IMG/VR virus record: IMGVR_UViG_3300025030_000194
Span: 1 to 43,847 of that record
DNA length: 43,847 nt
Origin: a virus
Direction: 5' to 3' (one strand)
Below, in pieces: positions 4,642-43,847 of the stretch (positions are counted from its first letter, which is position 1; each line of letters starts with the position of its first letter). Made by a program: the position numbers and the translations under genes. The notes beneath the pieces were generated by a model. That model was not told the origin of the DNA. It searched no databases and saw nothing but the letters and a program-made list of their open reading frames with translations.

Positions 4642-4974
4642 ATGAGTGAGATCGGGATAATTCCGACAGAATACAAGGTATTAGTTGAGTTGATGGCGGA
4701 ATCCGAGCAGACGAAGGGCGGGTTATTTCTCCCACTGTCAACGCTCGATAAACAGGAGATGGCGCGGGAGATCGGGATTTTCAGAGCAGCCGGCGCAATG
4801 GCGTTTAACCTGAACGACCCGACTTCTACCCCTTGGCCTGTTTATCCGAAAGACGGCGACCACGTGTATTTTGACCGTTACGCCGGGACGATCATCAAGA
4901 CCAAAGACGGCAAGAAATACCGCCTTTTGAATGACAAGAACATTGCCGCCATTATCACCACAGAAATCGAGTGA
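4642..4974 (+). CDS. GroES-like co-chaperonin (Cpn10 fold)
   Basis: A 110-residue protein matching the Cpn10 layout: an N-terminal strand IIPTEYKVLVEL (residues 5-16), then a mobile-loop-like segment EQTKGGLFLP where GroES proteins contact GroEL, then a barrel with GDHVYFDRYAGTIIKTKDGKKYRLL and the final DKNIAAII strand. Family members cap GroEL and set the folding chamber, and phage versions such as T4 gp31 allow large capsid proteins to fold. Its place between portal and scaffold fits a role in folding this phage's head proteins. The insert AAGAMAFNLNDPTSTPW in the middle is longer than in bacterial GroES. The ribosome site is weak (AAAGGGC). Confidence 0.8.
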   Translation: MSEIGIIPTEYKVLVELMAESEQTKGGLFLPLSTLDKQEMAREIGIFRAAGAMAFNLNDPTSTPWPVYPKDGDHVYFDRYAGTIIKTKDGKKYRLLNDKNIAAIITTEIE

Positions 4975-4981
4975 GGACATC

Positions 4982-5755
4982 ATGACCGGCGAAAACGACC
5001 AGGTAGAAGCGCTAGAAGTAGTCGAAAAAGCCGCCGCAATGGGGCACATGAACAAAGAAGAATGGACGGCCAAGGGCCGCGACCCTGAGAAATGGCGTCC
5101 GGCCAGCGAATTTGTTGAACGCGGTGAAAACCTCATGCCGATCTTGAAAGAACGGCTGGACCACAGCGTCAAAGAAATGGCCGAAATGAAGCAGACCATG
5201 CAGCAAATGCACAGTCACTTTATGAAAGCCGAAGAGGTTGCAGAGCGCAGAGGGTGGGAGAAGGCAATATCCGAGGTGCAAAAGAAACAACGCGCCGCCG
5301 CCGAGATTGCAGACGTTGAAGAGTTCGACAAGCTCGAAAAAGAGAAGTTTGAGCTTCTTAGCGCCCCGCCTCAAACGCATAATAAAAAGCCGTCCGGTCC
5401 GACTCCTGAGTTTAAGGAGTTCCATGCTAAAAACGAATGGTACGGCAAGGACGAAGAAGCGACGATTTACGCCGACACGATGGGAAACCGCTACCGACAA
5501 AAAAACCCTGAAGCAAGACTCGAAGAAGTCTTTGCTGAGGTTGAAAAGAAAGTACGCCACCGTTTTTCGGAACTATTCACGAATCCACGCAGAGAAGGGG
5601 CTTCGGCTGTAGAAGGTGCAACGGTTCCGATCAAGCGCGGAGGGAAGACGTTTGACGACCTCCCCCGCGAAGCCAAAGACGCCTATGCCCGCTTTGCTAA
5701 GCAGATACCGGGATTCAAAAAAGAGGAATACCTCAAAAACTACGATTGGAGTTAG
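4982..5755 (+). CDS. Scaffolding protein
   Basis: A 257-residue, highly charged and mostly helical protein directly before the capsid cluster. The N-terminus has the motif MNKEEWTAKGRDPEKWRPAS followed by EFVERGENLMPIL, often found in phage scaffolds. The middle (about 60-130) is a Met/Glu/Lys coiled coil, and the C-terminus is a basic helix pair (KQIPGFKKEEYLKNYDW) of the kind that binds coat protein. Scaffolds guide procapsid assembly and are then lost. The ATG at 4982 was chosen because GAGGACATC precedes it, and the longer upstream frame only overlaps the co-chaperonin gene. Confidence 0.7.
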   Translation: MTGENDQVEALEVVEKAAAMGHMNKEEWTAKGRDPEKWRPASEFVERGENLMPILKERLDHSVKEMAEMKQTMQQMHSHFMKAEEVAERRGWEKAISEVQKKQRAAAEIADVEEFDKLEKEKFELLSAPPQTHNKKPSGPTPEFKEFHAKNEWYGKDEEATIYADTMGNRYRQKNPEARLEEVFAEVEKKVRHRFSELFTNPRREGASAVEGATVPIKRGGKTFDDLPREAKDAYARFAKQIPGFKKEEYLKNYDWS

Positions 5756-5759
5756 GACA

Positions 5760-6218
5760 ATGGCGAGACCGAGGAAAGTAGACCGTAAAGACCGCGTGCC
5801 GTTTGGCACCATGAAAAGCAAACTGGCAATGGATGCAGACACTACAAAACGTTATGCCGACGCAGGTAAAGTTTTACGGTGGGTGAATGACGTTGACGGT
5901 GGAACACGAGTCAAACAAGCACAGACCGGAGGTTACGAGTTTTGCACAGCTGCAGGTTCTGAAGTTGCCGGGACGGACACTATCGATGAAGGGAACATGA
6001 TCCGTAAGCACGTGGGGAGTGATGCCAAAGGCCACCCGCAATACGCTTACCTCATGGCGATCGACAAAGAGTTTTATGAGGAAGACAAAGCGGCAAAAGA
6101 GGAAGTCAACAAAAAAGTGGACGATGCGATCAAGGGCGGGACACTCGCCGGAGGTGGCACCGAGAAGATCCCCGGTAAAGGGGAAACGTATATCAAACAG
6201 GCTGATTACCGGCCTTAA
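5760..6218 (+). CDS. Head-module protein of unknown function
   Basis: A 152-residue protein between scaffold and capsid genes. It starts at ATG 5760, five bases after the scaffold stop, behind AGGAC. The pattern VPFGTMKSKLAMD ... KVLRWVNDVDGGTRVKQA ... GGYEF recurs in conserved proteins found just before phage capsid genes. The second half (about 100-135) is a charged helix. A virion or assembly role is likely from position only. Confidence 0.65.
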   Translation: MARPRKVDRKDRVPFGTMKSKLAMDADTTKRYADAGKVLRWVNDVDGGTRVKQAQTGGYEFCTAAGSEVAGTDTIDEGNMIRKHVGSDAKGHPQYAYLMAIDKEFYEEDKAAKEEVNKKVDDAIKGGTLAGGGTEKIPGKGETYIKQADYRP

Positions 6219-6229
6219 AGGAGCCTACC

Positions 6230-6808
6230 GTGGCCAATTTGGACATCCCTAACGGCTTGAAGCCGTACAAAACCCTCAACGGGCATTCGACGGGAGCGGT
6301 CAACCGCTACTTCGTACCCGCCACCGATGGGACCGCCATTTATGTCGGTCAACCCGTCAAACTCGTAGGCAGCGCGACGACTGACGGCGTGCCGCACGTC
6401 ACCGCTATGACTACTACCGCTGACGTAATTGTCGGAGTGGTTGTCGGCGTGGAAATCGAAACCGCTGACAGCACCATGTACCGCGTTGCTTCGACGGCTC
6501 GTTATCTGCTCGTTGCCGATGACCCGCAGCAGGTTTTTGAAGTTCAGTCGGACGGCATCGGCGGCGTCACCGCAGTTGGTGAAGTGGCCGACCTTGTGAC
6601 CATTGCTACCGGATCGACCGTGACCGGACGCAGTTACATCGAAATTGGCAACTCGACCATCACCAACAACGGCGACCAAACCGAAGACGTGATGATTGTC
6701 GGCGTTCCCGTTCGTGCTGACAACGACATCACCATCGCAAACGGTCGCTACCTTGTCCGTCTGCTTAACCATGCGTTTGCCGTCGATAATGACGGTAGCG
6801 GCGTTTAA
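6230..6808 (+). CDS. Capsid-associated structural protein (probable decoration protein)
   Basis: A 192-residue protein with a GTG start at 6230 after AAAGGAG. The sequence is beta-rich: GLKPYKTLNGHSTGAVNRYF, VPATDGTAIYVGQPVKL, GVVVGVE, YLLVADDPQQVFEVQ. This pattern recurs in structural proteins encoded next to capsid genes in many podo- and siphoviruses. There is no signal peptide or membrane segment. Decoration of the capsid surface is the most likely job, but this is inferred from position. Confidence 0.65.
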   Translation: MANLDIPNGLKPYKTLNGHSTGAVNRYFVPATDGTAIYVGQPVKLVGSATTDGVPHVTAMTTTADVIVGVVVGVEIETADSTMYRVASTARYLLVADDPQQVFEVQSDGIGGVTAVGEVADLVTIATGSTVTGRSYIEIGNSTITNNGDQTEDVMIVGVPVRADNDITIANGRYLVRLLNHAFAVDNDGSGV

Positions 6809-6819
6809 GGGAGGCTGAC

Positions 6820-7728
6820 ATGGGCGTAATGACCAGTTCTAACCATCCAAAAGACCTTTGGCCGGGGATCGTTGCCCACTTTGGGCACACGTACACCGAG
6901 CACCAAGAAGAGTTTTCGCAGATTTTCGACAAGGAAAGCTCTGACAAAGCCTACGAGGAGCGGGTCCAGTATACCGGACTTGGTTTGGCTTCTGCCAAAG
7001 CCCAGGCTGCCGCAATCGGCTTTGATGAATCGCAGCAGGGCTACACTTCCCGGATGACCAACGTTACCTATGCGATCGGGGCAATTGTGACCCGCGAAGC
7101 CATTGATGACGGTCAGTATGAAAGCATCGCCAAGCGTCTTTCTAAAGGCATGGCCTTTTCTCTTCGCCAGACGAAAGAGAACATCGGCGCAAACATCTTG
7201 AACCGCGCATTTACCTCCGAGTACAACGGCGGCGACGGTGTTTGTCTGATTAACTCGGCACACCCTGAAACTGGCGGCAACCAGAGCAATGTGATTGCTA
7301 CCGCTGCCGACCTGTCCGAAGCGGCCCTTGAAGACATGCTGATTCAAATCATGCAGGCGCAAAACGCACGCGGCCTGAAGATCAGCCTTGTCGGGCAGAA
7401 GTTGATTGTCCCCCCGGCTCTCATCTTTGAGGCAACCCGCATTCTCAAATCTGCTCTCCAGAGCGGCAACGCCAACAACGATGTCAACGCCCTGAAACAA
7501 ATGGGACTGCTTCCCGGTGGGATCGTCGTCAACCACTATCTGACCGACGCTGACGCTTGGTTTGTGAAGACCAACACGCCGGAAGGTTTGATTTATCAGG
7601 AGCGCCGGTCCTACGAGTTCAAGCAGGACAACGATTTTGACACCGAAAACGCCAAAATGAAAGCGTCCGAGCGTTACACCTTCGGCTGGGCCGACTTCCG
7701 CGCTGTTTATGGTTCGCCGGGAGCGTGA
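6820..7728 (+). CDS. Major capsid protein (HK97 fold, Mu gpT-like)
   Basis: A 302-residue protein, a size normal for Mu gpT-like coat proteins. It shows an N-terminal helical arm (residues 1-50), a central stretch with IGAIVTREAIDDGQY (an E-loop and spine-helix region), FSLRQTKENIGANILNRAF, LIVPPALIFEATRIL, and the C-terminal TFGWADFRAVYGSPGA strand, all typical of the HK97-fold family. GGGAGG precedes the ATG. An endonuclease gene has been inserted directly after it. Confidence 0.85.
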   Translation: MGVMTSSNHPKDLWPGIVAHFGHTYTEHQEEFSQIFDKESSDKAYEERVQYTGLGLASAKAQAAAIGFDESQQGYTSRMTNVTYAIGAIVTREAIDDGQYESIAKRLSKGMAFSLRQTKENIGANILNRAFTSEYNGGDGVCLINSAHPETGGNQSNVIATAADLSEAALEDMLIQIMQAQNARGLKISLVGQKLIVPPALIFEATRILKSALQSGNANNDVNALKQMGLLPGGIVVNHYLTDADAWFVKTNTPEGLIYQERRSYEFKQDNDFDTENAKMKASERYTFGWADFRAVYGSPGA

Positions 7729-7740
7729 GAATAAAAACTA

Positions 7741-7796
7741 TACTGTCCGACCATGTTGTGTTAACTTAGGTTAAACATAAACATGGGAGGACAGTA
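7741..7796 (+). promoter_or_regulatory. RNA hairpin that hides the ribosome site of the endonuclease gene
   Basis: In the RNA, TACTGTCC (7741-7748) pairs with GGACAGTA (7789-7796), CCATGTT (7751-7757) with AACATGG (7780-7786), and TTAAC (7761-7765) with GTTAA (7770-7774), leaving a TTAG loop. The ribosome site GGGAGG (7785-7790) and the A of the ATG at 7796 lie in the 3' arm, so translation should be blocked when the whole stem forms. T4 homing endonuclease genes are known to use such hairpins so that read-through transcripts are silent. Confidence 0.8.
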
Positions 7797-8476
7797 TGAC
7801 TAGGAAAACCTGTAATATGCCAGGATGTGAAAATATTGTTGTGTCAAATGGTCTATGTGACAAACATAGGTTGAGATTACAACGACATGGCAGTACAGAC
7901 GAAACAAGGCCTAAAGATTGGGGAAAAAGAAGTAATCATCCCCTTTACGGAACTTGGGTATGGTTTAAAAAAAGAAGCGCTAAAAAAGGTATTTGTAAGG
8001 AATGGAAAGCCGATTTTTGGGCGTTCGTAAATGACGTTGGACAAAAACCTTCTAGCGACCATGCTTTAAGGCTTATAGACAGAGACGGAATTTACGAAAA
8101 ATGTAACGTTGAATGGAAAGAAATGACTCACGCGAAAGGCGAAGACAGAAAAAAGTTTGCATGTGAATACGCCAGGGAATGGCGTATCAATAATGTAGAT
8201 AAAGCCCGAGACGTAAGCCTGAGAAAAACGTTCAACATTACGCTTGTTCAGTACAACGAAATGCTAGAAAATCAGAACCATGCTTGTGCTATTTGCGGCG
8301 AAAAAGAAACGGTAATAAATTACAAGAACAGTAAAAAAATAAACTTGTCAGTTGACCATTGCCACACTACAGGGAAAATACGCGGGTTGCTTTGCGTGAA
8401 CTGCAATAAAGGCTTAGGTCACTTCAAGGACAACAAAGCAATAATGGAAAAGGCGATTTTATACCTTAACAACTAA
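7796..8476 (+). CDS. Homing-type endonuclease with EndoVII domain
   Basis: A 226-residue protein. The C-terminal half matches recombination endonuclease VII (T4 gp49 type): CAIC at 164-167, LSVDHCHTTGKIRGLLC at 184-200, a second zinc pair Cys200/Cys203, and GLGHFKDN at 206-213. The Asp-His of DHCH is the His-Me finger active site. The N-terminal half has a small Cys/His cluster (Cys6, Cys11, Cys21, His24) and RLIDRDGIYEKCNVEW (92-107), which resembles the LDRID..Y...NC.W region of the two HNH proteins later in the genome. It may therefore be a fusion of two nuclease modules. It is AT-rich, unlike the flanking structural genes, and sits right after the capsid gene, as free-standing homing genes often do. 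Confidence 0.82.
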   Translation: MTRKTCNMPGCENIVVSNGLCDKHRLRLQRHGSTDETRPKDWGKRSNHPLYGTWVWFKKRSAKKGICKEWKADFWAFVNDVGQKPSSDHALRLIDRDGIYEKCNVEWKEMTHAKGEDRKKFACEYAREWRINNVDKARDVSLRKTFNITLVQYNEMLENQNHACAICGEKETVINYKNSKKINLSVDHCHTTGKIRGLLCVNCNKGLGHFKDNKAIMEKAILYLNN

Positions 8477-8484
8477 CCTAGCTG

Positions 8485-8504
8485 GGGGGCGGGAAACCGC
8501 CCCC
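8485..8504 (+). promoter_or_regulatory. GC-rich hairpin with GAAA tetraloop
   Basis: An 8-bp perfect stem (GGGGGCGG / CCGCCCCC) closed by a GAAA loop. No T-run follows, so it is not a simple intrinsic terminator. It lies between the endonuclease gene and the next virion gene and probably followed the capsid gene before the endonuclease inserted. It could stabilise mRNA or slow polymerase. Confidence 0.7.
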
Positions 8505-8521
8505 TGCCTAAAAAGGAAAAG

Positions 8522-9499
8522 GTGGCTAGAATGGGTCAAACGAATTTCCCCGGTGGCATTTCAAGTATGGGCGTTCCTGTTTTCGGGAACGGCATCCCCG
8601 CAACGCACGGCAAAGTTTTTTTTGTCAACTATGGCACCGGCAGCGACGGCAACAACGGTCTTTCGACCGGGAAGCCGTTCAAAACCGTCTCCAAAGCCTA
8701 CAGCATGGCAACCACGAACGCGGACGACGTAATTGTGCTGTTTGGCAATTCAACGCACGCCCTGACCGAAATGTTGACCGTCTCCAAGAACCGCGTTCAT
8801 TTTGTCGGGATGGACGGCACCGCTCGCATGTACGGCCAGAATGCCAAAGTCAGCTTGGGCGCGACGACCGCCGCAACCGACATCGGCACGATTCTGAATA
8901 CTGGCGTTCGCAACAGCTTCAGCAACATCAAATTTATGAACTCCAACACCGTCGCAGAGGGCATTTACTGCTTTGTTGAGGGTGGCGAATACACCGTTCT
9001 CGACAACTGCGAGATTTACAAGGAAAACGGCCTTGACGAAACGACCGCTTCTGAGTTGGTTATGAACGGCGATTCCTGCCAGATTCGCAACTGTGTGATT
9101 GGGTCTTTGGCCAATGCCATTTCCGGTCAACGTATCCGCGCCAATGTGCGAATGACCAAAGGTATCGCTGGGGCCGGTAAGGTTGCCCGTGATGTTGTCT
9201 TTGAAGGTTGCCAGTTCTGGAAAAAAGCCGGTCACGTTGACAACCGCTTCTTTTATGGAGCAAATGCCGACGACTGCGAACGCATGTTGCTGATTCGTAA
9301 CTGTGTTTTCGTTTCGCAAAAACTTTCCACCGCTGTTCCGGCCCAGTGCGTCGCCTTTGGCGCGGAACAATCGGCAGGATATGTTCTCATCGACAACTGT
9401 TCATCCATCGGCAACACGAAACTGTCCACGACGACCGGCGTTCACATTACCGGAGCTGTGCCGACCTATGCGACTTCCGGCATTGCCGTCGCGTCTTAA
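8522..9499 (+). CDS. Parallel beta-helix virion protein
   Basis: A 325-residue protein starting at GTG 8522, or at ATG 8531 (AAGG and AGG stretches fit either). The opening FFVNYGTGSDGNNGLSTGKPFKTVSKAY is typical of right-handed parallel beta-helix proteins, followed by repeated short strands with stacked Asn (for example YTVLDNCEIYKENG, CQIRNCVIG, VVFEGCQFW, LLIRNCVFV, VLIDNCSSIG). These repeat roughly every 25-30 residues. It may be a capsid fibre or decoration, or a glycan-binding spike. Its place beside the capsid gene favours a head-surface role. No catalytic residues can be assigned. Confidence 0.7.
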   Translation: MARMGQTNFPGGISSMGVPVFGNGIPATHGKVFFVNYGTGSDGNNGLSTGKPFKTVSKAYSMATTNADDVIVLFGNSTHALTEMLTVSKNRVHFVGMDGTARMYGQNAKVSLGATTAATDIGTILNTGVRNSFSNIKFMNSNTVAEGIYCFVEGGEYTVLDNCEIYKENGLDETTASELVMNGDSCQIRNCVIGSLANAISGQRIRANVRMTKGIAGAGKVARDVVFEGCQFWKKAGHVDNRFFYGANADDCERMLLIRNCVFVSQKLSTAVPAQCVAFGAEQSAGYVLIDNCSSIGNTKLSTTTGVHITGAVPTYATSGIAVAS

Positions 9500-9505
9500 C
9501 CAACA

Positions 9506-9523
9506 GGGGGGAGCGATCCCCCC
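9506..9523 (+). promoter_or_regulatory. GC-rich hairpin with GCGA tetraloop
   Basis: A 7-bp perfect stem GGGGGGA / TCCCCCC with a GCGA loop, eight bases after the stop of the beta-helix gene. Like the 8485 hairpin it has a GNRA loop and no T-run. AAGGAGG for the next gene follows. Confidence 0.7.
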
Positions 9524-9540
9524 GCTTCTAAGGAGGCGAC

Positions 9541-9921
9541 ATGCCGAATGCAATCACCATAACAACAATTCTTGATGGGGTAAGAAACCTCGTCAAGAAG
9601 ATCGACATAGTAGGAGATGGCAGCGGCGAAGAGACGGCGGCTGTTCTTGTTGATGTTTCCGCTCATGGATGCGCGGCCGTTTCCATCCTCAAAGAATACC
9701 ACCAACTCAGCGGGTTTTCTGCGCGTCTTAAGTGGGACGCTGATTCCGACATTGTTGCCTTCAATCTTCTTGAGGGTGAGGGCGGAATCGATTTTAACCT
9801 GCTATCCGGTCCCGTGAACAACAACGCCGGAGCGGGTAAAACAGGCGACCTTGTTCTTGCTACTACCGGCCTTGGATCGGGAGACACCGGAACTATAATT
9901 TTGACCATGCGGAAGAAGTAA
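9541..9921 (+). CDS. Small structural protein
   Basis: A 126-residue, Gly- and beta-rich protein with a strong AAGGAGG site. The C-terminal GDLVLATTGLGSGDTGTIIL motif recurs in small proteins of phage head-tail modules. The stop and the next start share TAATG. It probably belongs to the virion, but the exact part cannot be told. Confidence 0.6.
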   Translation: MPNAITITTILDGVRNLVKKIDIVGDGSGEETAAVLVDVSAHGCAAVSILKEYHQLSGFSARLKWDADSDIVAFNLLEGEGGIDFNLLSGPVNNNAGAGKTGDLVLATTGLGSGDTGTIILTMRKK

Positions 9922-10166
9922 TGAACTGCGACGGGAACACATATCGCGCCGGTGGATCATTTGGAATATGCGACGAATGTGGTTTTAAATTCCGTTTGTC
10001 GGAATTGCGAAGACGGTGGGATAAAGCACTGGTTTGCAAAAAGGACTGGGAGCCGCGACACCCGCAAGAATTTGTCAGGGGAAAATCCGACCGGATCAAA
10101 TACCCCGGCGAAATCCGCCCTGAACCCGCAGACACCTTCACCAGTACGTCATTAGAGGATTTATGA
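9921..10166 (+). CDS. Zinc-ribbon head-tail module protein
   Basis: An 81-residue protein. GICDECGFKFRLSELRRRWD followed by LVCKKDWEPRHPQEFVRG gives a four-residue zinc site (Cys18, Cys21, Cys40 and probably Asp/His downstream). The signature W-[ED]-x-R-H-P-Q-[DE]-F is widely conserved in phages at this map position. Its role is unknown, and an adaptor in head completion is possible. It overlaps both neighbours by a few bases, so translation is coupled. Confidence 0.65.
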   Translation: MNCDGNTYRAGGSFGICDECGFKFRLSELRRRWDKALVCKKDWEPRHPQEFVRGKSDRIKYPGEIRPEPADTFTSTSLEDL

Positions 10167-28911: not shown

Positions 28912-29547
28912 TTGAAGATACCAGCCAACACTAAATTTGGACGGCTCACGGTTTTGAAAGAACATCCTACCAGATCAAAAGACAAGCACTTGATGGTTGA
29001 GTGTAAGTGCGATTGCGGGACCACAACAATTAAGATGTGGTCCCGCTTAAAGCACGGGAGAGTTTTATCGTGTGGATGTTTATCTTTTGAGAATAAGCCG
29101 AATTTGAGTCACGGAATGAGGTATACAAGAACATATGAGTCTTGGGCTTCAGCTAAAAACAGATGTACTTGCAAAACGTCTAAAGACTACCCGAAGTACG
29201 GAGGCGCAGGGATAACTTTCTGCAATCGATGGGCTGATTCGTTTGAACAATTTTATACTGATATGGGGGACCGTCCACAAAACACGTCTCTTGACAGAAT
29301 TGACACAACAAAAGGATATGAACCAGATAATTGCAGGTGGGCAACCAGATCAGAACAACAAAGGAATAAAAAAAAATCGTATGACTGGAATATAAACGGA
29401 GAAATATTTACTTCAGCAGAAGCGGCTGCAATAAGATTCGGTGTTACGGTTCAAACAATACATAAATGGATGTGGGGTTGGGAAGACAAAAGAAGAAACA
29501 AGAAATGGAGCCCAAAGAATGGATGCACAAGAATACCAAAATATTGA
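28912..29547 (+). CDS. Free-standing HNH homing-type endonuclease 1 (HNH plus NUMOD-like HTH)
   Basis: A 211-residue protein with a TTG start at 28912 behind GGAGG. Order: KFGRLTVLKEH start, a zinc ribbon (Cys31, Cys33, Cys35, Cys54 and Cys56), YGGAGITFCNRW (96-107), FEQFYTDMGDRP, then SLDRIDTTKGYEPDNCRWAT (126-145), which is the HNH-like core, and a C-terminal NGEIFTSAEAAAIRFGVTVQTIHKW (162-186) resembling NUMOD1 DNA-binding helices. It is AT-rich and a paralogue of the 32905 protein. It overlaps the exonuclease start by 29 bases. Homing activity is inferred from family and position. Confidence 0.78.
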   Translation: MKIPANTKFGRLTVLKEHPTRSKDKHLMVECKCDCGTTTIKMWSRLKHGRVLSCGCLSFENKPNLSHGMRYTRTYESWASAKNRCTCKTSKDYPKYGGAGITFCNRWADSFEQFYTDMGDRPQNTSLDRIDTTKGYEPDNCRWATRSEQQRNKKKSYDWNINGEIFTSAEAAAIRFGVTVQTIHKWMWGWEDKRRNKKWSPKNGCTRIPKY

Positions 29548-32904: not shown

Positions 32905-33555
32905 TTGAAACCACAAACACTAGATATTACTGGTCACAGGTACGGGCGGTTAACCGTTCTGAAATGGCATAGTTCTGGGCGCTCTGTTAAGTGGGAGTGT
33001 TTGTGTGACTGCGGGAAGACAAAAATAGTCCAAACAAATAATTTAAGATCAGGCCACACAAGGTCGTGCGGATGCTTGCTTGAAGATGTAAAAAGATTGC
33101 ACAGCAAGACACATGGGGGGACAAGCTCAAGAACTTACCATGTATGGTCAACTATGCGCCAACGCTGCGGGAACCCAAAGCATGAGCATTACCATTATTA
33201 CGGAGGGAGGGGTATCACTGTTTGTGAAAGATGGGGGAAATTTGCAAATTTTTTAGAAGATATGGGCCATGCGCCTGACCGCCTCCAACTTGACAGAACC
33301 GACAGGGACGGGAATTATTGCCAAGAAAATTGCAAATGGGTGACTAAAACTGAAAATATGCGCAACAGAAGTAATAATTATGTAGTTGAATATGAGGGAG
33401 AGGTTATTTGCTTATCGGCTCTCGCAGAAAAGACGGGGGTCCCTGTTTATGCTTTGGCAAGAAGAATAAAACAATGGGGGATGTCCCCTAAAATGGCAGT
33501 AGAGGGAGCGAAAAACAGGAGGCGTTGTGAAAAAAAAGAGCATAACACCAAATAG
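32905..33555 (+). CDS. Free-standing HNH homing-type endonuclease 2
   Basis: A 216-residue paralogue of the 28912 protein with a TTG start at 32905 behind GGAGAG. It has YGRLTVLKWH, a zinc ribbon (Cys32, Cys34, Cys36, Cys55, Cys57), YYGGRGITVCERW (98-110), FLEDMGHAP, the core LQLDRTDRDGNYCQENCKW (127-145) and an HTH-like end (GEVICLSALAEKTGVPVYALARRI). It sits inside the HNH gene: the original 5' end is at 32771, the rebuilt one overlaps this gene's last 29 bases. AT-rich against its neighbours, clearly a mobile arrival. Confidence 0.78.
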   Translation: MKPQTLDITGHRYGRLTVLKWHSSGRSVKWECLCDCGKTKIVQTNNLRSGHTRSCGCLLEDVKRLHSKTHGGTSSRTYHVWSTMRQRCGNPKHEHYHYYGGRGITVCERWGKFANFLEDMGHAPDRLQLDRTDRDGNYCQENCKWVTKTENMRNRSNNYVVEYEGEVICLSALAEKTGVPVYALARRIKQWGMSPKMAVEGAKNRRRCEKKEHNTK

Positions 33556-34197: not shown

Positions 34198-35046
34198 ATG
34201 CTGACTGACAAGGACAAGATCATCAAGGGTTACAAAGCCACCGACGACGATATGAAGTGCAGAGGATTTCAGTTTGAGCTTGACGTCTGGTACGAACACC
34301 AAGGCGAATTATCACTTTGCAATTCTGGATTTCATTTCTGTGAATATCCCTCCGGCCCATGGTGCTATTACGGTAATGGCCGGTTGTTCCACGTCGAAGC
34401 AAAAGAAGTTTTGGTGTCAACGGGACCGGGCGCAGACTTGAAGCATGTGGCGCGTTTTATCCGCCTTGTTTCGGAGATAAAAATTGACGGCAACAGGAAC
34501 ACCGGCAACAGGAACACCGGCAACTGGAACACCGGCGACAGGAACACCGGCGACTGGAACACCGGCAACAGGAACACCGGCGACAGGAACACCGGCAACA
34601 GGAACACCGGCAACAGGAACACCGGCGACTGGAACACCGGCAACGGGAACACCGGCGACTGGAACACCGGCGACAGGAACACCGGCGACTGGAACACCGG
34701 CGACTGGAACACCGGCGACTGGAACACCGGCAACGGGAACACCGGCGACTGGAACACCGGCGACTGGAACACCGGCAACGGGAACACCGGCAACGGGAAC
34801 ACCGGCGACTACCACGCGGGATCGTTGAACATCGGTGATGCGCCATTTCTTCTTTTCAACAAAAAAGCCGACAGGGAAAAAGTTGATTTTTATTTGGTGC
34901 GCGAATTGTCACAGCTTTTGATGGGAGATGATGACATTAACCCCAATCAGTTTTTGTCTTTACCAAACGCAACGGCGTCCGCGATATTGAAATTGCACAA
35001 AGCGCACATAGCCGCAAGAAACCAGCGGAAAGGGAACAAGGCATGA
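34198..35046 (+). CDS. Pentapeptide-repeat protein
   Basis: A 282-residue protein with GAGGAGAG. The N-terminal domain (KGYKATDDDMKCRGFQFEL, ELSLCNSGFHFCEYP) is of the DUF7666 type often joined to repeats in phages. Residues 99-203 hold 21 units of the form [N/D]-[R/W/G]-N-T-G, then two decayed units (DYHAG, SLNIG), and a helical C-terminal domain. Pentapeptide repeats fold as a square beta-helix, some of which mimic DNA and block gyrase. This protein may act on host DNA enzymes, though that is a guess. Confidence 0.72.
   Translation: MLTDKDKIIKGYKATDDDMKCRGFQFELDVWYEHQGELSLCNSGFHFCEYPSGPWCYYGNGRLFHVEAKEVLVSTGPGADLKHVARFIRLVSEIKIDGNRNTGNRNTGNWNTGDRNTGDWNTGNRNTGDRNTGNRNTGNRNTGDWNTGNGNTGDWNTGDRNTGDWNTGDWNTGDWNTGNGNTGDWNTGDWNTGNGNTGNGNTGDYHAGSLNIGDAPFLLFNKKADREKVDFYLVRELSQLLMGDDDINPNQFLSLPNATASAILKLHKAHIAARNQRKGNKA
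34492..34806 (+). repeat. 15-bp minisatellite, 21 units
   Basis: Each unit is RACNGGAACACCGGC, varying almost only at two first-codon positions (A/G in the first codon, A/T/G in the second). Units stay in phase with the codons. Because 15 is a multiple of three, gain or loss of units keeps the frame and changes the length of the beta-helix. Confidence 0.92.
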
Positions 35047-39840: not shown

Positions 39841-40035
39841 ATGACTAAAGACTTAGCAGGCTTCAAAGAACGCTGCGACATTGCCGAAAGGTGTACGCCG
39901 GAATCGGAATACAGGCTATTACTCGCCAGACTTCACAACGACATGCTAGACGCGATCGACCGGGAGAAAACCCGCGCCGATCACGCCGAAAGAACCATTG
40001 CCGCCATCAAGCGGATGGTCGAGGCGAAGGGATAA
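39841..40035 (+). CDS. Small helical protein, first gene of the cassette region
   Basis: A 64-residue helical protein with GGAGG. CTPESEYRLLLARLHNDMLDAIDREKTRADHAERTIAAIKRMVEAKG is nearly all helix. No family is recognised. Its TAA stop (40033-40035) is part of the GGATAAC that opens the first attC-like site. Its 5' side shows no GTTA end, so it marks the anchored edge of the array. Confidence 0.6.
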   Translation: MTKDLAGFKERCDIAERCTPESEYRLLLARLHNDMLDAIDREKTRADHAERTIAAIKRMVEAKG

Positions 40036-40092
40036 CGGCTTCGCTTTGAACGGCGTAGCGTAGCTGAGACCGCTTCCAAAGCGGGGTTATAT
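40030..40092 (+). repeat. attC-like site A
   Basis: GGATAAC (40030-40036) to GTTATAT (40086-40092). CGCTTTG (40042-40048) pairs with CAAAGCG (40077-40083). TAAC overlaps the stop of the gene before, and GTTA lies 12 bases before the next ribosome site, as in integron recombination sites. Confidence 0.8.
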
Positions 40093-40108
40093 TACGGGAG
40101 GTAACATT

Positions 40109-40333
40109 ATGACTAGAGTGGAATTACGAGAATCATTGGTGGATGAAGTTGATAGAAACCCTCACGATTTGATATCTGCGGACATACGCATGGTGTTTAA
40201 CGCTGCATACAACGCAGGATTGAGGCGAGCAGCAAGCCGCGTGCTTGAATTGGCTCAGGGGAATATTCCGGTGCAACCGTCATTTACTTATGCCGGTGTT
40301 TCTGCTGCAATCCTAGAAGAAGTGGCGGAGTAA
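40109..40333 (+). CDS. Cassette gene 2, hypothetical
   Basis: A 74-residue protein with GGGAGG. It has MVFNAAYNAGLRRAASRVLELAQGNIP, which is loosely similar to the FKAGMLAAAEMA domain proteins at 31792 and 36624. It starts 17 bases after GTTATAT and ends just before ATATAAC, exact reverse complements, so both ends belong to one cassette. Confidence 0.6.
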   Translation: MTRVELRESLVDEVDRNPHDLISADIRMVFNAAYNAGLRRAASRVLELAQGNIPVQPSFTYAGVSAAILEEVAE

Positions 40334-40366
40334 TATAACGTGGCCGTGCATGACCTGCGCGGCGAA
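40333..40366 (+). repeat. attC-like site B, truncated
   Basis: ATATAAC (40333-40339) starts a site, but GTTA is missing before the next gene at 40377. The right half of the site and the front end of the next cassette seem to be deleted. Confidence 0.6.
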
Positions 40367-40376
40367 GGAGAGAACG

Positions 40377-40652
40377 ATGGATAAAGAGAAAGATGAACCG
40401 AGACAGGTCGATGCGCTTGTTATGCGATTCCCCGGCATCCTGAACGATGGGAGTCATGCCCCGGTAAATAGCGACACGGCCCGACTTGATTTTATCTCTC
40501 GCCACCAAAAATTATTGGTGAACCTGAAAGCCGGTGTCCGCGCCGCGAACGTCCCTAATCACTGGCAAGCGTCGGTGAGGGCGGCGATAGACGCGGCAAT
40601 GGAAACCATGAGGCGGGATTTGCGGTCAAAGGGCTGTAATCCTGAGTGGTGA
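40377..40652 (+). CDS. Cassette gene 3, hypothetical
   Basis: A 91-residue protein started at ATG 40377 after AAGGAG. ARLDFISRHQKLLVNLKAGVRAANVPNHWQASVRAAIDAAMETM reads as a helical domain common in small phage proteins (the TARLDFI motif recurs). Followed by GCATAAC, the start of site C. Its own front end cannot be seen because site B is truncated. Confidence 0.6.
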   Translation: MDKEKDEPRQVDALVMRFPGILNDGSHAPVNSDTARLDFISRHQKLLVNLKAGVRAANVPNHWQASVRAAIDAAMETMRRDLRSKGCNPEW

Positions 40653-40757
40653 GCATAACGCTTTTGATCAGCGGACCGCGACGAACTGACCGCGAACCGC
40701 TGAGACAAACGAGACCAGCAGACGGTCATTCGGTCCGACTGGATCTTTTGGTTAGCC
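40653..40757 (+). repeat. attC-like site C (longest, 105 bases)
   Basis: GCATAAC (40653-40659) to GTTAGCC (40751-40757). Nested pairs: GATC 40666-40669 with 40742-40745, CGGACCG 40672-40678 with CGGTCCG 40731-40737, TGACCG 40687-40692 with CGGTCA 40723-40728. TTTT faces TTTT between the ends and the stem, giving an unpaired central spacer, with unequal AG / ACTG in between, as in integron attC hairpins. Confidence 0.85.
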
Positions 40758-40785
40758 CCTCACCGGGGGCAGAAAGGAACTGGCT

Positions 40786-41082
40786 ATGCTGGAAGCAAGA
40801 GCGCAGTTATACCCGTGGAGTAAGAGAGTCGATATAGCACTGATCCTGCCTCGCGGGGATCATTATTCCTGTGCGGAACCGGTAGTAATGACAGGCCGCT
40901 CGGATGGGGAAATGGTTACCCCCGCTTTTTCGCTCGAACCGAAGGCCGTACAACAGCTGATGGATGATCTCTGGATGTGTGGCTATCGACCGAGCGAAGG
41001 AACGGGAAGCGCCGGGCAACTCTCGGCGGTTGAATACCACCTTGAGGACATGCGCAAACTGGTTTTTCAGGGCAAGGGCTAA
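40786..41082 (+). CDS. Cassette gene 4, conserved phage protein
   Basis: A 98-residue protein with AAAGGAAC. FSLEPKAVQQLMDDLWMCGYRPSEGTGSAGQLSAVEYHLEDMRKLVF is a motif widely seen in tailed phages, with no known function. Its TAA stop lies in GGCTAAC (41077-41083), the reverse complement of GTTAGCC at its front (40751-40757). That makes 40752-41132 a complete cassette. Confidence 0.7.
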   Translation: MLEARAQLYPWSKRVDIALILPRGDHYSCAEPVVMTGRSDGEMVTPAFSLEPKAVQQLMDDLWMCGYRPSEGTGSAGQLSAVEYHLEDMRKLVFQGKG

Positions 41083-41138
41083 CGATTGCGTTTGTGCTGC
41101 AAGCGCAGCGCAGACAGGCACCAATAAGCTGGTTATAT
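41077..41138 (+). repeat. attC-like site D
   Basis: GGCTAAC (41077-41083) to GTTATAT (41132-41138). GTGC-TG pairs with CA-GCAC around a GCG/CGC tip, with an extra G on one side. The two outer ends differ from each other beyond TAAC/GTTA, since they come from neighbouring cassettes. Confidence 0.8.
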
Positions 41139-41155
41139 TTCGAAAGGAGGGTTGA

Positions 41156-41455
41156 ATGAGCAAAACACTAAAAATGATAAAAGACGAATTGCCCAAAACA
41201 ATGAGAGAATGCGACTTTGATCTGCTTTACAAAGACATCTGCCAAGCTGTGAAGGAAGTTGATAAGCTGAAGCGGGATCTAGCCGTCTCGGAAGAGTTAC
41301 GATTAAGTGCTGAAGCGGTAATTGAACAAGCGATCATCAATGAGCGTAAAGCCTGTTACGAGGTAGCGCAAAATGCACTCTGTCACGCAGGTTTAGACAT
41401 GAGTACAACAAACTATATTGCCGGGAATATCAAGGCGCGTGGGTTAGAAATATAA
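41156..41455 (+). CDS. Cassette gene 5, helical hypothetical protein
   Basis: A 99-residue helical protein with AAAGGAGG. LYKDICQAVKEVDKLKRDLAVSEELRLSAEAVIEQAIINERKACYEVAQNALCHAGLD carries the ERKACYEVA motif common in small phage proteins. Front end GTTATAT and back end ATATAAC match exactly as reverse complements. Confidence 0.6.
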   Translation: MSKTLKMIKDELPKTMRECDFDLLYKDICQAVKEVDKLKRDLAVSEELRLSAEAVIEQAIINERKACYEVAQNALCHAGLDMSTTNYIAGNIKARGLEI

Positions 41456-41518
41456 CGGCCTTGGCGCTGACCCGTCCGCCGGGTGTTGGGCGGTCGGTGT
41501 CCGGCGTCCTGGTTATGT
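41450..41518 (+). repeat. attC-like site E
   Basis: ATATAAC (41450-41456) to GTTATGT (41512-41518). A strong inner stem pairs CCG-CCGCC with GGCGG-CGG around a T-T mismatch. The stop TAA (41453-41455) is in the site. Confidence 0.8.
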
Positions 41519-41537
41519 GGGATTGAAAGGAGCGAGT

Positions 41538-41819
41538 ATGACAGGGACTGCAATTCGTGAAGCACTCAGCCGACCTCCTGTTTTTGGAGATACCGAGCAA
41601 ATAGCCGCTTTGAAGATTTTACGACAAGCCGAGGCAAAAAAAGAAGAGAAACGTGCCGAGGGTAAAAAGGAATATAAAGTCACGGTTGAATGCTCATGGG
41701 AAGATACCGTTACCGTTTGGGCTGCGGATGAATCAGAAGCGAAAAAGATGGCGAAGGAAGAGGCCGAAGGGGATTTTGAGGTATATACATTTCACGTGCG
41801 GGAAATTTTCCCCACATAA
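41538..41819 (+). CDS. Cassette gene 6, hypothetical
   Basis: A 93-residue protein started at ATG 41538 after AAAGGAG. A charged helix (AALKILRQAEAKKEEKRAEGKK) is followed by a small alpha/beta domain (YKVTVECSWEDTVTVWAADESEAKKMAKEEA), the latter a pattern found in small phage proteins. Front end GTTATGT matches back end ACATAAC exactly. Confidence 0.6.
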   Translation: MTGTAIREALSRPPVFGDTEQIAALKILRQAEAKKEEKRAEGKKEYKVTVECSWEDTVTVWAADESEAKKMAKEEAEGDFEVYTFHVREIFPT

Positions 41820-41876
41820 CGCTTGAGCGTGACCAGCGGCAGGTTTTCGCAGACTGGTCCACAGCGTTGGTTATAC
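41814..41876 (+). repeat. attC-like site F
   Basis: ACATAAC (41814-41820) to GTTATAC (41870-41876). GACCAG (41831-41836) pairs with CTGGTC (41854-41859). The stop TAA (41817-41819) lies in the site. Confidence 0.8.
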
Positions 41877-41932
41877 GTCGAATCGACCGAAGCGGGAATT
41901 CACGTAACGGAACAAAATTAAGGAGAAACGGT

Positions 41933-42289
41933 ATGAATCTGGAAGAGAAAGACAAATATATTGAGGAACATCTGATGGCGTTGTCCGCCGAAACCCTCCG
42001 CTTTATGGTGGCTGATCATGTGGCAGAGATAGAACAACTCCGCGTGCAACTGGCGGGATGTGGAGTAGTGGCGATGTGCAACACCGAAACGTCACGGGCA
42101 AAACAGAAATGTGAACAGGGTGACTATGGTTGGTCTCAAAGTTATCAGGATGTAGCAAACGCCGTAGACCGAGAAATCAAACTCCGCCATGCGCTGGATA
42201 TCATCCACGACTATACAGTCAGGAATCACGGCGGGATATTGGGACGGCTGCACGAAATTTGTGACACGGCATTGGGGCACGAGAAATAG
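41933..42289 (+). CDS. Cassette gene 7, conserved phage protein
   Basis: A 118-residue protein started at ATG 41933 behind AAGGAG. GCGVVAMCNTETSRAKQKCEQGDYGWSQSYQDVANAVDREIKLRHALD is a motif conserved in many tailed phages (CGV-A--NT ... W-SYQDV--AVDRE). Function unknown. Front end GTTATAC matches its back end GTATAAC (42294-42300). Confidence 0.65.
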   Translation: MNLEEKDKYIEEHLMALSAETLRFMVADHVAEIEQLRVQLAGCGVVAMCNTETSRAKQKCEQGDYGWSQSYQDVANAVDREIKLRHALDIIHDYTVRNHGGILGRLHEICDTALGHEK

Positions 42290-42293
42290 AGAC

Positions 42294-42320
42294 GTATAAC
42301 GCTTAAAGATCAGCGGAGGT
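42294..42320 (+). repeat. attC-like site G, truncated
   Basis: GTATAAC (42294-42300), a GCTTAAA spacer and GATCAGCGGA, the same left arm as site C. No right half follows, and GGAGG of the next gene sits directly on the left arm. Confidence 0.65.
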
Positions 42321-42323
42321 TCT

Positions 42324-42575
42324 ATGGGAAAGAAATACCCTTGTGAGTCATGTGGAAAATTTAACTGCCAGTGCGATAAAAAATATTCTTCCGCTGCATC
42401 TGCGGGTTATGCAATTTCGGTCACTCACCCGTCCTTTCTTCAGGGCTATTTCGACGGAAGCGATGACCCTGGATTCGTCAAAGCGATACAACCGGAGTCG
42501 GTAGATAATCTTTACCCTGTAGGCTCTGAGGATTATTTTCAGTACGAGGCGGGGTACAGGGCGGCAATTGCATAA
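42324..42575 (+). CDS. Cassette gene 8, Cys-containing hypothetical
   Basis: An 83-residue protein. YPCESCGKFNCQCDKK makes a small zinc-binding start. The rest (SFLQGYFDGSDDPGF, DYFQYEAGYRAAIA) ends in an F-x-x-GY-x-A-A motif common in phages. Its TAA stop starts site H. Confidence 0.6.
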   Translation: MGKKYPCESCGKFNCQCDKKYSSAASAGYAISVTHPSFLQGYFDGSDDPGFVKAIQPESVDNLYPVGSEDYFQYEAGYRAAIA

Positions 42576-42620
42576 CGATTTTAAGCTGTGCCGCTCGACG
42601 GCACGAGCGCCTTGTTATGG
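42570..42620 (+). repeat. attC-like site H
   Basis: GCATAAC (42570-42576) to GTTATGG (42614-42620). GTGCCG (42588-42593) pairs with CGGCAC (42599-42604) around a CTCGA loop, with a GC/GC pair and bulged bases outside. Confidence 0.82.
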
Positions 42621-42635
42621 CGCGGGAGGTAGCAA

Positions 42636-42812
42636 ATGCAACCGTGGGTAATGTGGATGATAAATCACAACATGCGGATAGTCGTGCAGATTATCTGCCT
42701 CGTGATGTTCCCGGCGTACATCGTTTATCCAGTTTTCGACAAATTCGGGAAAATGATGGGGGAATGGGTGTCCGACTGGAAAGAAATTCTACGTTACAGA
42801 AAAGCGCCATAA
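42636..42812 (+). CDS. Cassette gene 9, small membrane protein
   Basis: A 58-residue protein with GGGAGG. MRIVVQIICLVMFPAYIVYPVF is a membrane helix, followed by a basic/aromatic tail (WVSDWKEILRYRKAP). Its TAA stop lies in CCATAAC (42807-42813), the reverse complement of GTTATGG at its front. A longer frame on the same strand is only its shadow. Confidence 0.6.
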   Translation: MQPWVMWMINHNMRIVVQIICLVMFPAYIVYPVFDKFGKMMGEWVSDWKEILRYRKAP

Positions 42813-42850
42813 CTACTGATTAGCCCGCACAACAAGCGGTATATCCATCA
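42807..42850 (+). repeat. attC-like site I, degenerate end of the array
   Basis: CCATAAC (42807-42813) and a short CCGC/GCGG stem, but only a GGTATAT-like right end. This is the last site of the array. Confidence 0.5.
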
Positions 42851-42993
42851 TTTTAATAAACGGCATAAATTCAAAATAGTCGGATAGTTGGATTCAATTT
42901 CAGCGGATAACAGAATCACGAAAGGACGCAAAGTAATTGAAAATAATTTTAGCCTGTGCTAACGTGGCGTAACGAAAAGAGAAAAGGCGCGTC
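42851..42993 (+). promoter_or_regulatory. Non-coding stretch with a candidate promoter
   Basis: AT-rich. TTGAAA (42937-42942), a 17-bp spacer and TAACGT (42960-42965) may drive the last small genes and the terminase genes. A weaker TTGGAT / CAGAAT pair lies at 42888-42916. No gene is seen. Confidence 0.35.
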
Positions 42994-43682: not shown

Positions 43683-43847
43683 GCAGGCCAAGCAGCTACA
43701 ACGACGAAACAGCATCAATAATCTGCGACCGGATTGCAGGCGGCGAATCTCTCCGCAAGATATGTGCCTGCGAGGACATGCCGGACAAGAAGACCGTGCT
43801 GAAGTGGTTGAGGGATAACCCTGAGTTCGTCACCCACTACGCCTGCG
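43679..43847 (+). CDS. terS: Terminase small subunit, 5' part
   Basis: ATG 43679 after AAGGAG. It reads MSRPSSYNDETASIICDRIAGG and continues without break to the right end, where it joins base 137 at the left. This start should be used for the whole protein of 150 residues. The first residues differ from what bases 1-10 would encode. Confidence 0.85.
   Translation, partial: MSRPSSYNDETASIICDRIAGGESLRKICACEDMPDKKTVLKWLRDNPEFVTHYAC
43722..43847. repeat. Terminal direct repeat, right copy (126 bp)
   Basis: Identical to 11-136. Indicates that the window is a full circle with an overlap. Confidence 0.9.

Follow-up and report, generated by a model that had tools for sequence, protein, structure and literature searches.

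An attC array with an attI-like site and no integrase gene in a phage genome, candidate platform of a phage integron

In the canonical integron cassette the gene stands 5' of its own attC site and reads away from the attI site. Here we describe an array of small genes and attC-like hairpins in IMG/VR record IMGVR_UViG_3300025030_000194, a phage genome analysed over its whole length of 43,847 nucleotides (nt; hereafter the window), in which the genes appear to read toward an attI-like site and no integron integrase gene (intI) was found. We regard the region, with a probability of roughly 0.83, as the attI-plus-cassettes part of a phage integron without the integrase gene. Behind it there is probably a phage-specific integron system, with its own clade of integrases (IntI), a common pool of attC sites, inverted open reading frames (ORFs), intI-less platforms using integrases in trans, and trade of small genes among unrelated phages.

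That attC arrays occur in phages and are recombined by IntI1 is already known from Qi et al. 2023 (PMC9892861). Besides a few complete integrons, that study reports from phages 17 clusters of attC sites lacking integron integrases (CALINs), and it observed recombination with attI1 through IntI1 for five out of six tested phage attC sites. The CALINs of virulent phages in that paper (TJE1, P12002L, PH101 and others) are likewise attC arrays without integrase, whereas the window also has an attI-like site, an inversion of attC relative to ORF, and attC sites common to phages of the IntI clade; neither attI nor reversed gene polarity is described for these CALINs in the part of the paper available. 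The complete integrons of temperate phages (Vibrio phage p16, Shewanella phage M16-3 and P1 with IntI1), as given there, carry intI, attI and attC together on the phage genome; the p16 array is a subset of the host chromosomal integron, and P1 carries class 1 integrons.

Among bacterial systems, the sedentary chromosomal integrons of Acidobacteriota and Chloroflexota (L113, L164, L128 and L117; L numbers are our labels for loci) have nearly the same attI motif, AACTA(T/C)TGATTA, upstream of intI and the same bulge side in their hairpins, but their cassette ORFs mostly read away from intI, unlike those of phage arrays. In Treponema integrons (PMC3607928) intI and the cassette genes are codirectional, as in the phage arrays; there, however, the integrase gene is flipped and transcribed toward attI, whereas the phage loci keep the usual direction of intI, away from attI, and have their cassette ORFs turned round. 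The literature searched, which excluded preprints and most subscription papers, yielded only Qi et al. 2023 on phage IntI, and nothing on a clade of such integrases, on inverted-ORF arrays, on a shared attC pool or on intI-less attI platforms.

The cassette array and its unit ends

Eight complete attC-like sites (A–H) and eight plus-strand ORFs lie between a resident phage gene and position 42822. Each unit has a GTT box at its front and an AAC box at its back, and the two are reverse complements of each other; in order along the array they match over 10, 7, 8, 10, 10, 10, 11 and 10 nt, at distances of 170–430 nt. All eight cassettes thus carry complementary halves of one site at their two ends, whereas within one physical site the boxes agree over 4–6 nt only (six sites measured). 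When the whole window was searched for GTT...AAC pairs spaced 150–600 nt apart, all six pairs with at least 10 complementary nt fell in the array, head to tail. The same region gave a mean of 0.015 such pairs (maximum 1) in 1000 dinucleotide shuffles, and the true pairing of fronts with backs is the best among 40,320 permutations. Furthermore, eight of the ten plus-strand TAAC-hairpin-GTTA matches in the 44 kb window fall within the 2.8 kb of the array (binomial 1e-8).

The initial annotation had reported seven complementary bases at the ends of six cassettes, poor agreement between the two ends of one site, and odds against chance. All this is borne out: the six pairs of ends lie where it placed them, and their complementarity is longer than seven bases (10, 8, 10, 10, 10 and 10 nt). 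Its count of six complete sites was too low, as B and G are also complete, their R' boxes at 40419 and 42406 having been missed because they lie inside the next ORF. Against its nine plus-strand genes, the array has eight cassettes, bounded on the left by the resident gene at 39841-40035. The features are as follows.

39841..40035, plus strand: resident phage gene at the left edge, not a cassette; its stop codon overlaps the first R'' box and there is no complementary front box upstream
40030..40092, plus strand: attC A, R boxes at 40033/40086; 82% identical over 60 nt to an attC in L111
40109..40333, plus strand: cassette gene 1, ORF of 74 amino acids (aa); unit ends complementary over 10 nt
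40333..40425, plus strand: attC B, its hairpin containing the start of gene 2; identified from the fold and from R boxes at 40336/40419 (7 nt match)
40377..40652, plus strand: cassette gene 2, ORF of 91 aa with a second ATG in frame at 40421, overlapping the R' box
40653..40757, plus strand: attC C, matching an attC of L104, a phage contig with IntI, at 84% over 109 nt; also in L209-L211
40786..41082, plus strand: cassette gene 3, 98 aa, with homologs in other phages; ends complementary over 8 nt
41077..41138, plus strand: attC D, matching an attC of the IntI phage L088 at 84% over 63 nt and L221 at 90% over 61 nt
41156..41455, plus strand: cassette gene 4, ORF of 99 aa; ends complementary over 10 nt
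41450..41518, plus strand: attC E, from its R boxes and fold
41538..41819, plus strand: cassette gene 5, ORF of 93 aa with a weak DpnD/PcfM-like match; ends complementary over 10 nt
41814..41876, plus strand: attC F, in common, together with the start of gene 6, with the IntI phage L084 (81% over 203 nt)
41933..42289, plus strand: cassette gene 6, 118 aa, with homologs in L084 and Pseudomonas syringae phages; ends complementary over 10 nt
42294..42412, plus strand: attC G, its hairpin containing the start of gene 7; identified from the fold and from R boxes at 42297/42406 (11 nt match)
42324..42575, plus strand: cassette gene 7, ORF of 83 aa
42570..42620, plus strand: attC H, 85% identical over 55 nt to L104 and 98% over 59 nt to L221
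42636..42812, plus strand: cassette gene 8, ORF of 58 aa; ends complementary over 10 nt
42807..42822, plus strand: attI-like site CCATAACTACTGATTA, where the array has its proximal end; a single copy of AACWAYTGATTA in the window (42811-42822), expected 0.01
42823..42932, plus strand: leader behind attI, no ORF assigned; conserved in phage contigs without detected intI (L213 and L221)

A general chain detector with an 8-nt threshold also returned chance chains of 2–4 units in unrelated phages. Chains alone were therefore not taken as proof, and the anchoring at attI and the sharing of attC DNA were used instead.

Integrases, attI-like site and shared attC sites of related phages

Cassette gene 6 led to the viral contig L084, where the same attC and gene start stand in another array that is followed by an integrase gene. 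Its product scores 395 bits against the integron integrase family TIGR02249, the cut-off being 265 bits. Scans for further viral loci, with the L084 protein and with an alignment of five relatives, brought to 14 the other records above that cut-off (twelve from IMG/VR, the contig L111 of a metagenome-assembled genome (MAG), and the GenBank virus Rctr41k). When 57 IntI were placed in a bootstrapped tree, thirteen viral sequences grouped with L111 in a single clade (support 100/100). Bacterial IntI fall outside this clade, as do those of Vibrio phage p16, Shewanella phage M16-3, P1 (IntI1) and Rctr41k. Bacterial and archaeal genomes, when scanned, yielded bacterial IntI of at most 55% identity in the best segment, and L111 at 78%; the latter belongs to a Deltaproteobacteria MAG and its contig also encodes a terminase. 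Terminase or portal genes are found near intI on the same contig at six viral loci.

In most members of the clade a similar attI motif precedes intI, and an array adjoins it. This motif, found about 40–180 nt before the intI start, consists of AAC, some three bases and variants of T-N-ATTA(TC). The motif of the window is the same as that 5' of intI in L104, L107 and L100, with variants in others. The AAC of attI pairs over 7–10 nt with a cassette front, and that of the window over 10 nt with the front of the adjacent cassette. Among 15 attI-like sites, 13 pair over at least 9 nt with a cassette front, as against 0.44% of 2,498 background AACs. When related intI loci are compared in pairs, the homologous DNA of the intI module in most cases starts at the AAC of attI or close to it and stops with the integrase gene. 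The window thus has a putative attI beside its array. The leader behind it is 73–75% identical over about 122 nt (from 42803/42810 in the window) to L213 and L221, and no intI was found in either. Since this attI-like site and leader are common to intI-less loci, the window looks like an integron platform minus its integrase, more than an attC cluster, and not alone of its kind. The motif is absent from the best 80 of 574 terminase-relative stretches (best identity 72%), and a pattern scan for attI with the GCGGTATA element matched the contig of L100 alone. An alignment of GCGGTATATCC of the window with intI leaders gave a resemblance that is suggestive only, because the longer leader in common with L213 and L221 is a different stretch.

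Five attC sites of the window (A, C, D, F and H) are 81–85% identical to sites in four IntI-bearing records, and the intI-less phage L221 has a site with 98% identity to attC H. L098 and L103, whose flanks are homologous to each other, have in common an equivalent left-edge gene; it is conserved as far as TAAC, and the two diverge within a few bases of it. L088 and L105 diverge at the same place, within a few bases of the TAAC box. The junctions lie at ACATAACGC between the window and L084 and at TAACTACTG between L104 and L107. The complement of the TAAC box is G|TT, where the initial annotation had proposed, as a test set beforehand, that related phages should differ by gain or loss of whole units; the breakpoints agree with this. 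It had also asked for IntI in relatives, which L084, L088, L104 and others provide and the 40 terminase relatives searched do not.

Four side observations concern these loci. The contig L225 (IMGVR_UViG_3300037424_000434, 235,765 bases) is 96% identical at 8623-8649, over 28 nt, to the end of attC H and the following cassette front. The IntI of L084, L088, L089, L090 and L091 have GLR-NEVD-CL or similar beside a catalytic-type arginine (alignment A1, about residues 156-164), a region which may be one residue longer than in classical IntI. The Deltaproteobacteria MAG BP8.bin69 (G013) encodes the phage-clade IntI of L111 on contig C32 and a bacterial-type IntI over the cut-off on contig C3, so that a single cell may bring together the integrons of host and phage. 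Virus Rctr41k (L192, KX853513.1) has at 4680-9977 the gene of an IntI that scores 383 bits against TIGR02249 but carries no annotation other than xerD, and after it six chained units with an end complementarity of 9–11 nt; it is absent from the phage tables in the part of Qi et al. 2023 (PMC9892861) available.

Orientation of the cassettes, gene content and genome context

When the ends of a cassette are joined as in a circle, they form a hairpin with an R stem of 7–11 base pairs, an unpaired spacer and an L stem that mostly carries single-base bulges. The folds of the window follow the attC plan, and R'' and R' boxes with the GTT core, folded hairpin, L stem, spacer and extrahelical bases were all found; several sites have branched or weak L stems, and attC A is without any bulges. 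According to Bouvier et al. 2009 (PMC2727003), R complementarity is 9–11 nt and the extrahelical bases of the L'' arm select the strand. In the window 11 out of 12 bulges are on the right arm, which adjoins the downstream gene. Relative to attI, phage sites tend to the same bulge side (35 right, 12 left) as bacterial sites (17 right, 2 left), which argues that the genes are inverted and not the sites. The cassette ORFs of phage loci mostly read toward intI, whereas those of bacterial loci that share the attI motif (L113, for instance) mostly read away from it.

In the window and L084 alike, the attC F hairpin is accompanied by its downstream gene, and the same pattern is seen in L088 and L111. 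Homology between L088 and L105 stops at the AAC box, not past the next hairpin, and ORFs start inside hairpins not only at sites B and G but also in L088 and L091. Judged from folding, homology and ORF positions, the attC of each gene would lie 5' of it and the ORFs would read toward attI; the canonical cassette arrangement is not seen in the window. A model in the canonical orientation, with each gene followed by its attC, was the starting point of the analysis and had also been that of the initial annotation. It was dropped because of the bulge side, the unit in common with L084 and the ORFs that start inside hairpins.

We propose that a unit reads C, attC hairpin, ribosome binding site, gene and a final AA. 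With its extrahelical bases on the gene-side arm, the plus strand would act as the canonical bottom strand. An integron integrase would bind this folded strand and exchange it at G|TT (on the minus strand, AA|C on the plus strand), so that units could be excised, inserted at attI and reordered. Most likely a phage of the IntI clade, co-infecting or resident, would supply the integrase; a host integron is the other candidate. As all ORFs have the direction of the neighbouring phage genes, expression by read-through of phage transcription, not from an integron promoter, would be expected. This recombination activity, the supply of IntI in trans, the route of expression and an adaptive role are inferred.

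Most cassette proteins of the window gave no family assignment. Gene 3 has homologs in L081 (51%) and Burkholderia phage CSP3 (42%), and the DpnD/PcfM-like match of gene 5 is below the curated cut-off (Pfam E 0.0028). Where cassettes have detectable relatives (genes 3 and 6), these are phage genes. The cassettes of related arrays encode N6/N4 DNA methyltransferases, ThyX, NADAR and DUF4406 proteins, and the methyltransferases, ThyX and NADAR suggest a role in phage-host conflict or metabolism. As a fair guess, the cassettes are a stock of small accessory genes that help the phage against its hosts.

The start of the record recurs at its end from about base 10, over about 127 bases (1-135 and 43721-43847). 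The window is therefore probably a whole, circularly assembled genome, though it may be classed as linear. Comparison with PHROGs assigned terminase, portal, major head, head closure and tail proteins, a helicase, an Erf annealing protein and an exonuclease; the array is placed between the replication genes and the terminase. The description of the phage as lytic-looking is consistent with the lack of a Phage_integrase match in the record. A search of INPHARED phages gave no DNA similarity to the array and one of Rfam no attC match. A covariance model built from a MAFFT alignment of attC sites was not used, its L arms being unaligned and no base pair reaching consensus. Elsewhere in the window, an ORF at 34198-35046 has a long central run of NTGN/NTGD repeats, in a stretch where several frames are open on both strands, and three ORFs (7796-8476, 28912-29547 and 32905-33555) resemble homing endonucleases of the HNH/AP2 type, as judged by eye from their translations.

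Alternative readings and significance

The array might be a dead relic, that is, a phage integron which lost intI long ago and is now immobile. The record has no intI, and the window, L213 and L221 have the attI leader in common with no intI detected. Moreover, the phage IntI profile is matched in just 3 of the 18 viral records with the motif of attC C or H, in one of them by a C-terminal end only; several of the other 15 are fragments. We nevertheless consider such a relic unlikely, since decay would be expected of a dead array and the end complementarity of 7–11 nt is intact in all eight cassettes. Furthermore, attC H is nearly identical between the window and L221, and intI-less platforms with differing cassettes recur in several viral contigs, which suggests ongoing exchange in trans.

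An ordinary CALIN, captured by chance from a bacterial chromosomal integron, in the canonical orientation and without any phage-specific system, is quite improbable. CALINs of virulent phages have been published (PMC9892861), the R'' boxes overlap stop codons as in canonical cassettes, and the window has what defines a CALIN, at least two attC sites and no integrase; it is not a complete integron, for want of an intI gene. The view of the initial annotation that this is an integrase-less attC cluster holds to the extent that integron cassettes are present without intI. But the attI-like site at the end of the array, the match of the attC sites with those of IntI phages and the movement of attC F with the downstream instead of the upstream gene are at odds with an ordinary CALIN. 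The same holds for the bulge side and the ORF starts inside hairpins, which indicate reverse orientation, and for the phage origin of the relatives of the cassette genes. The idea that the hairpins serve as terminators of transcription or in RNA processing between small genes, and that the repeats arose on that account, can practically be dismissed: the hairpins are intergenic, some folds are stable and attC is thought to hold weak terminators (PMC9892861), but the complementarity links the ends of one unit and not the arms of one hairpin, breakpoints between phages fall at the box, and integron integrases are encoded beside such arrays.

Several points weigh against the preferred reading, a phage integron platform without its integrase gene. 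As the initial annotation had remarked, no integron integrase is visible: neither TIGR02249, Phage_integrase nor the phage IntI profile is matched in the record. None of the 40 terminase relatives searched has intI, and most IntI contigs are fragments. Some sharing is limited to the hairpin, bounded by both boxes, with no neighbouring gene (attC C and H with L104, and L090 with L107), for which a simple model of whole-unit exchange gives no account. The strand signal is a tendency, with 12 left-arm against 35 right-arm bulges across the phage arrays, and in a few phage cassettes the longer ORF lies on the opposite strand.

The mosaicism of phages is usually ascribed to homologous and illegitimate recombination. 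A phage-borne integron platform, if true, would let unrelated phages exchange small accessory genes in a directed, site-specific way, and would open a second pool of cassettes beside the bacterial one, with gene polarity reversed. It would also make possible direct tests of which IntI works, on which strand, and whether an array changes within one infection.

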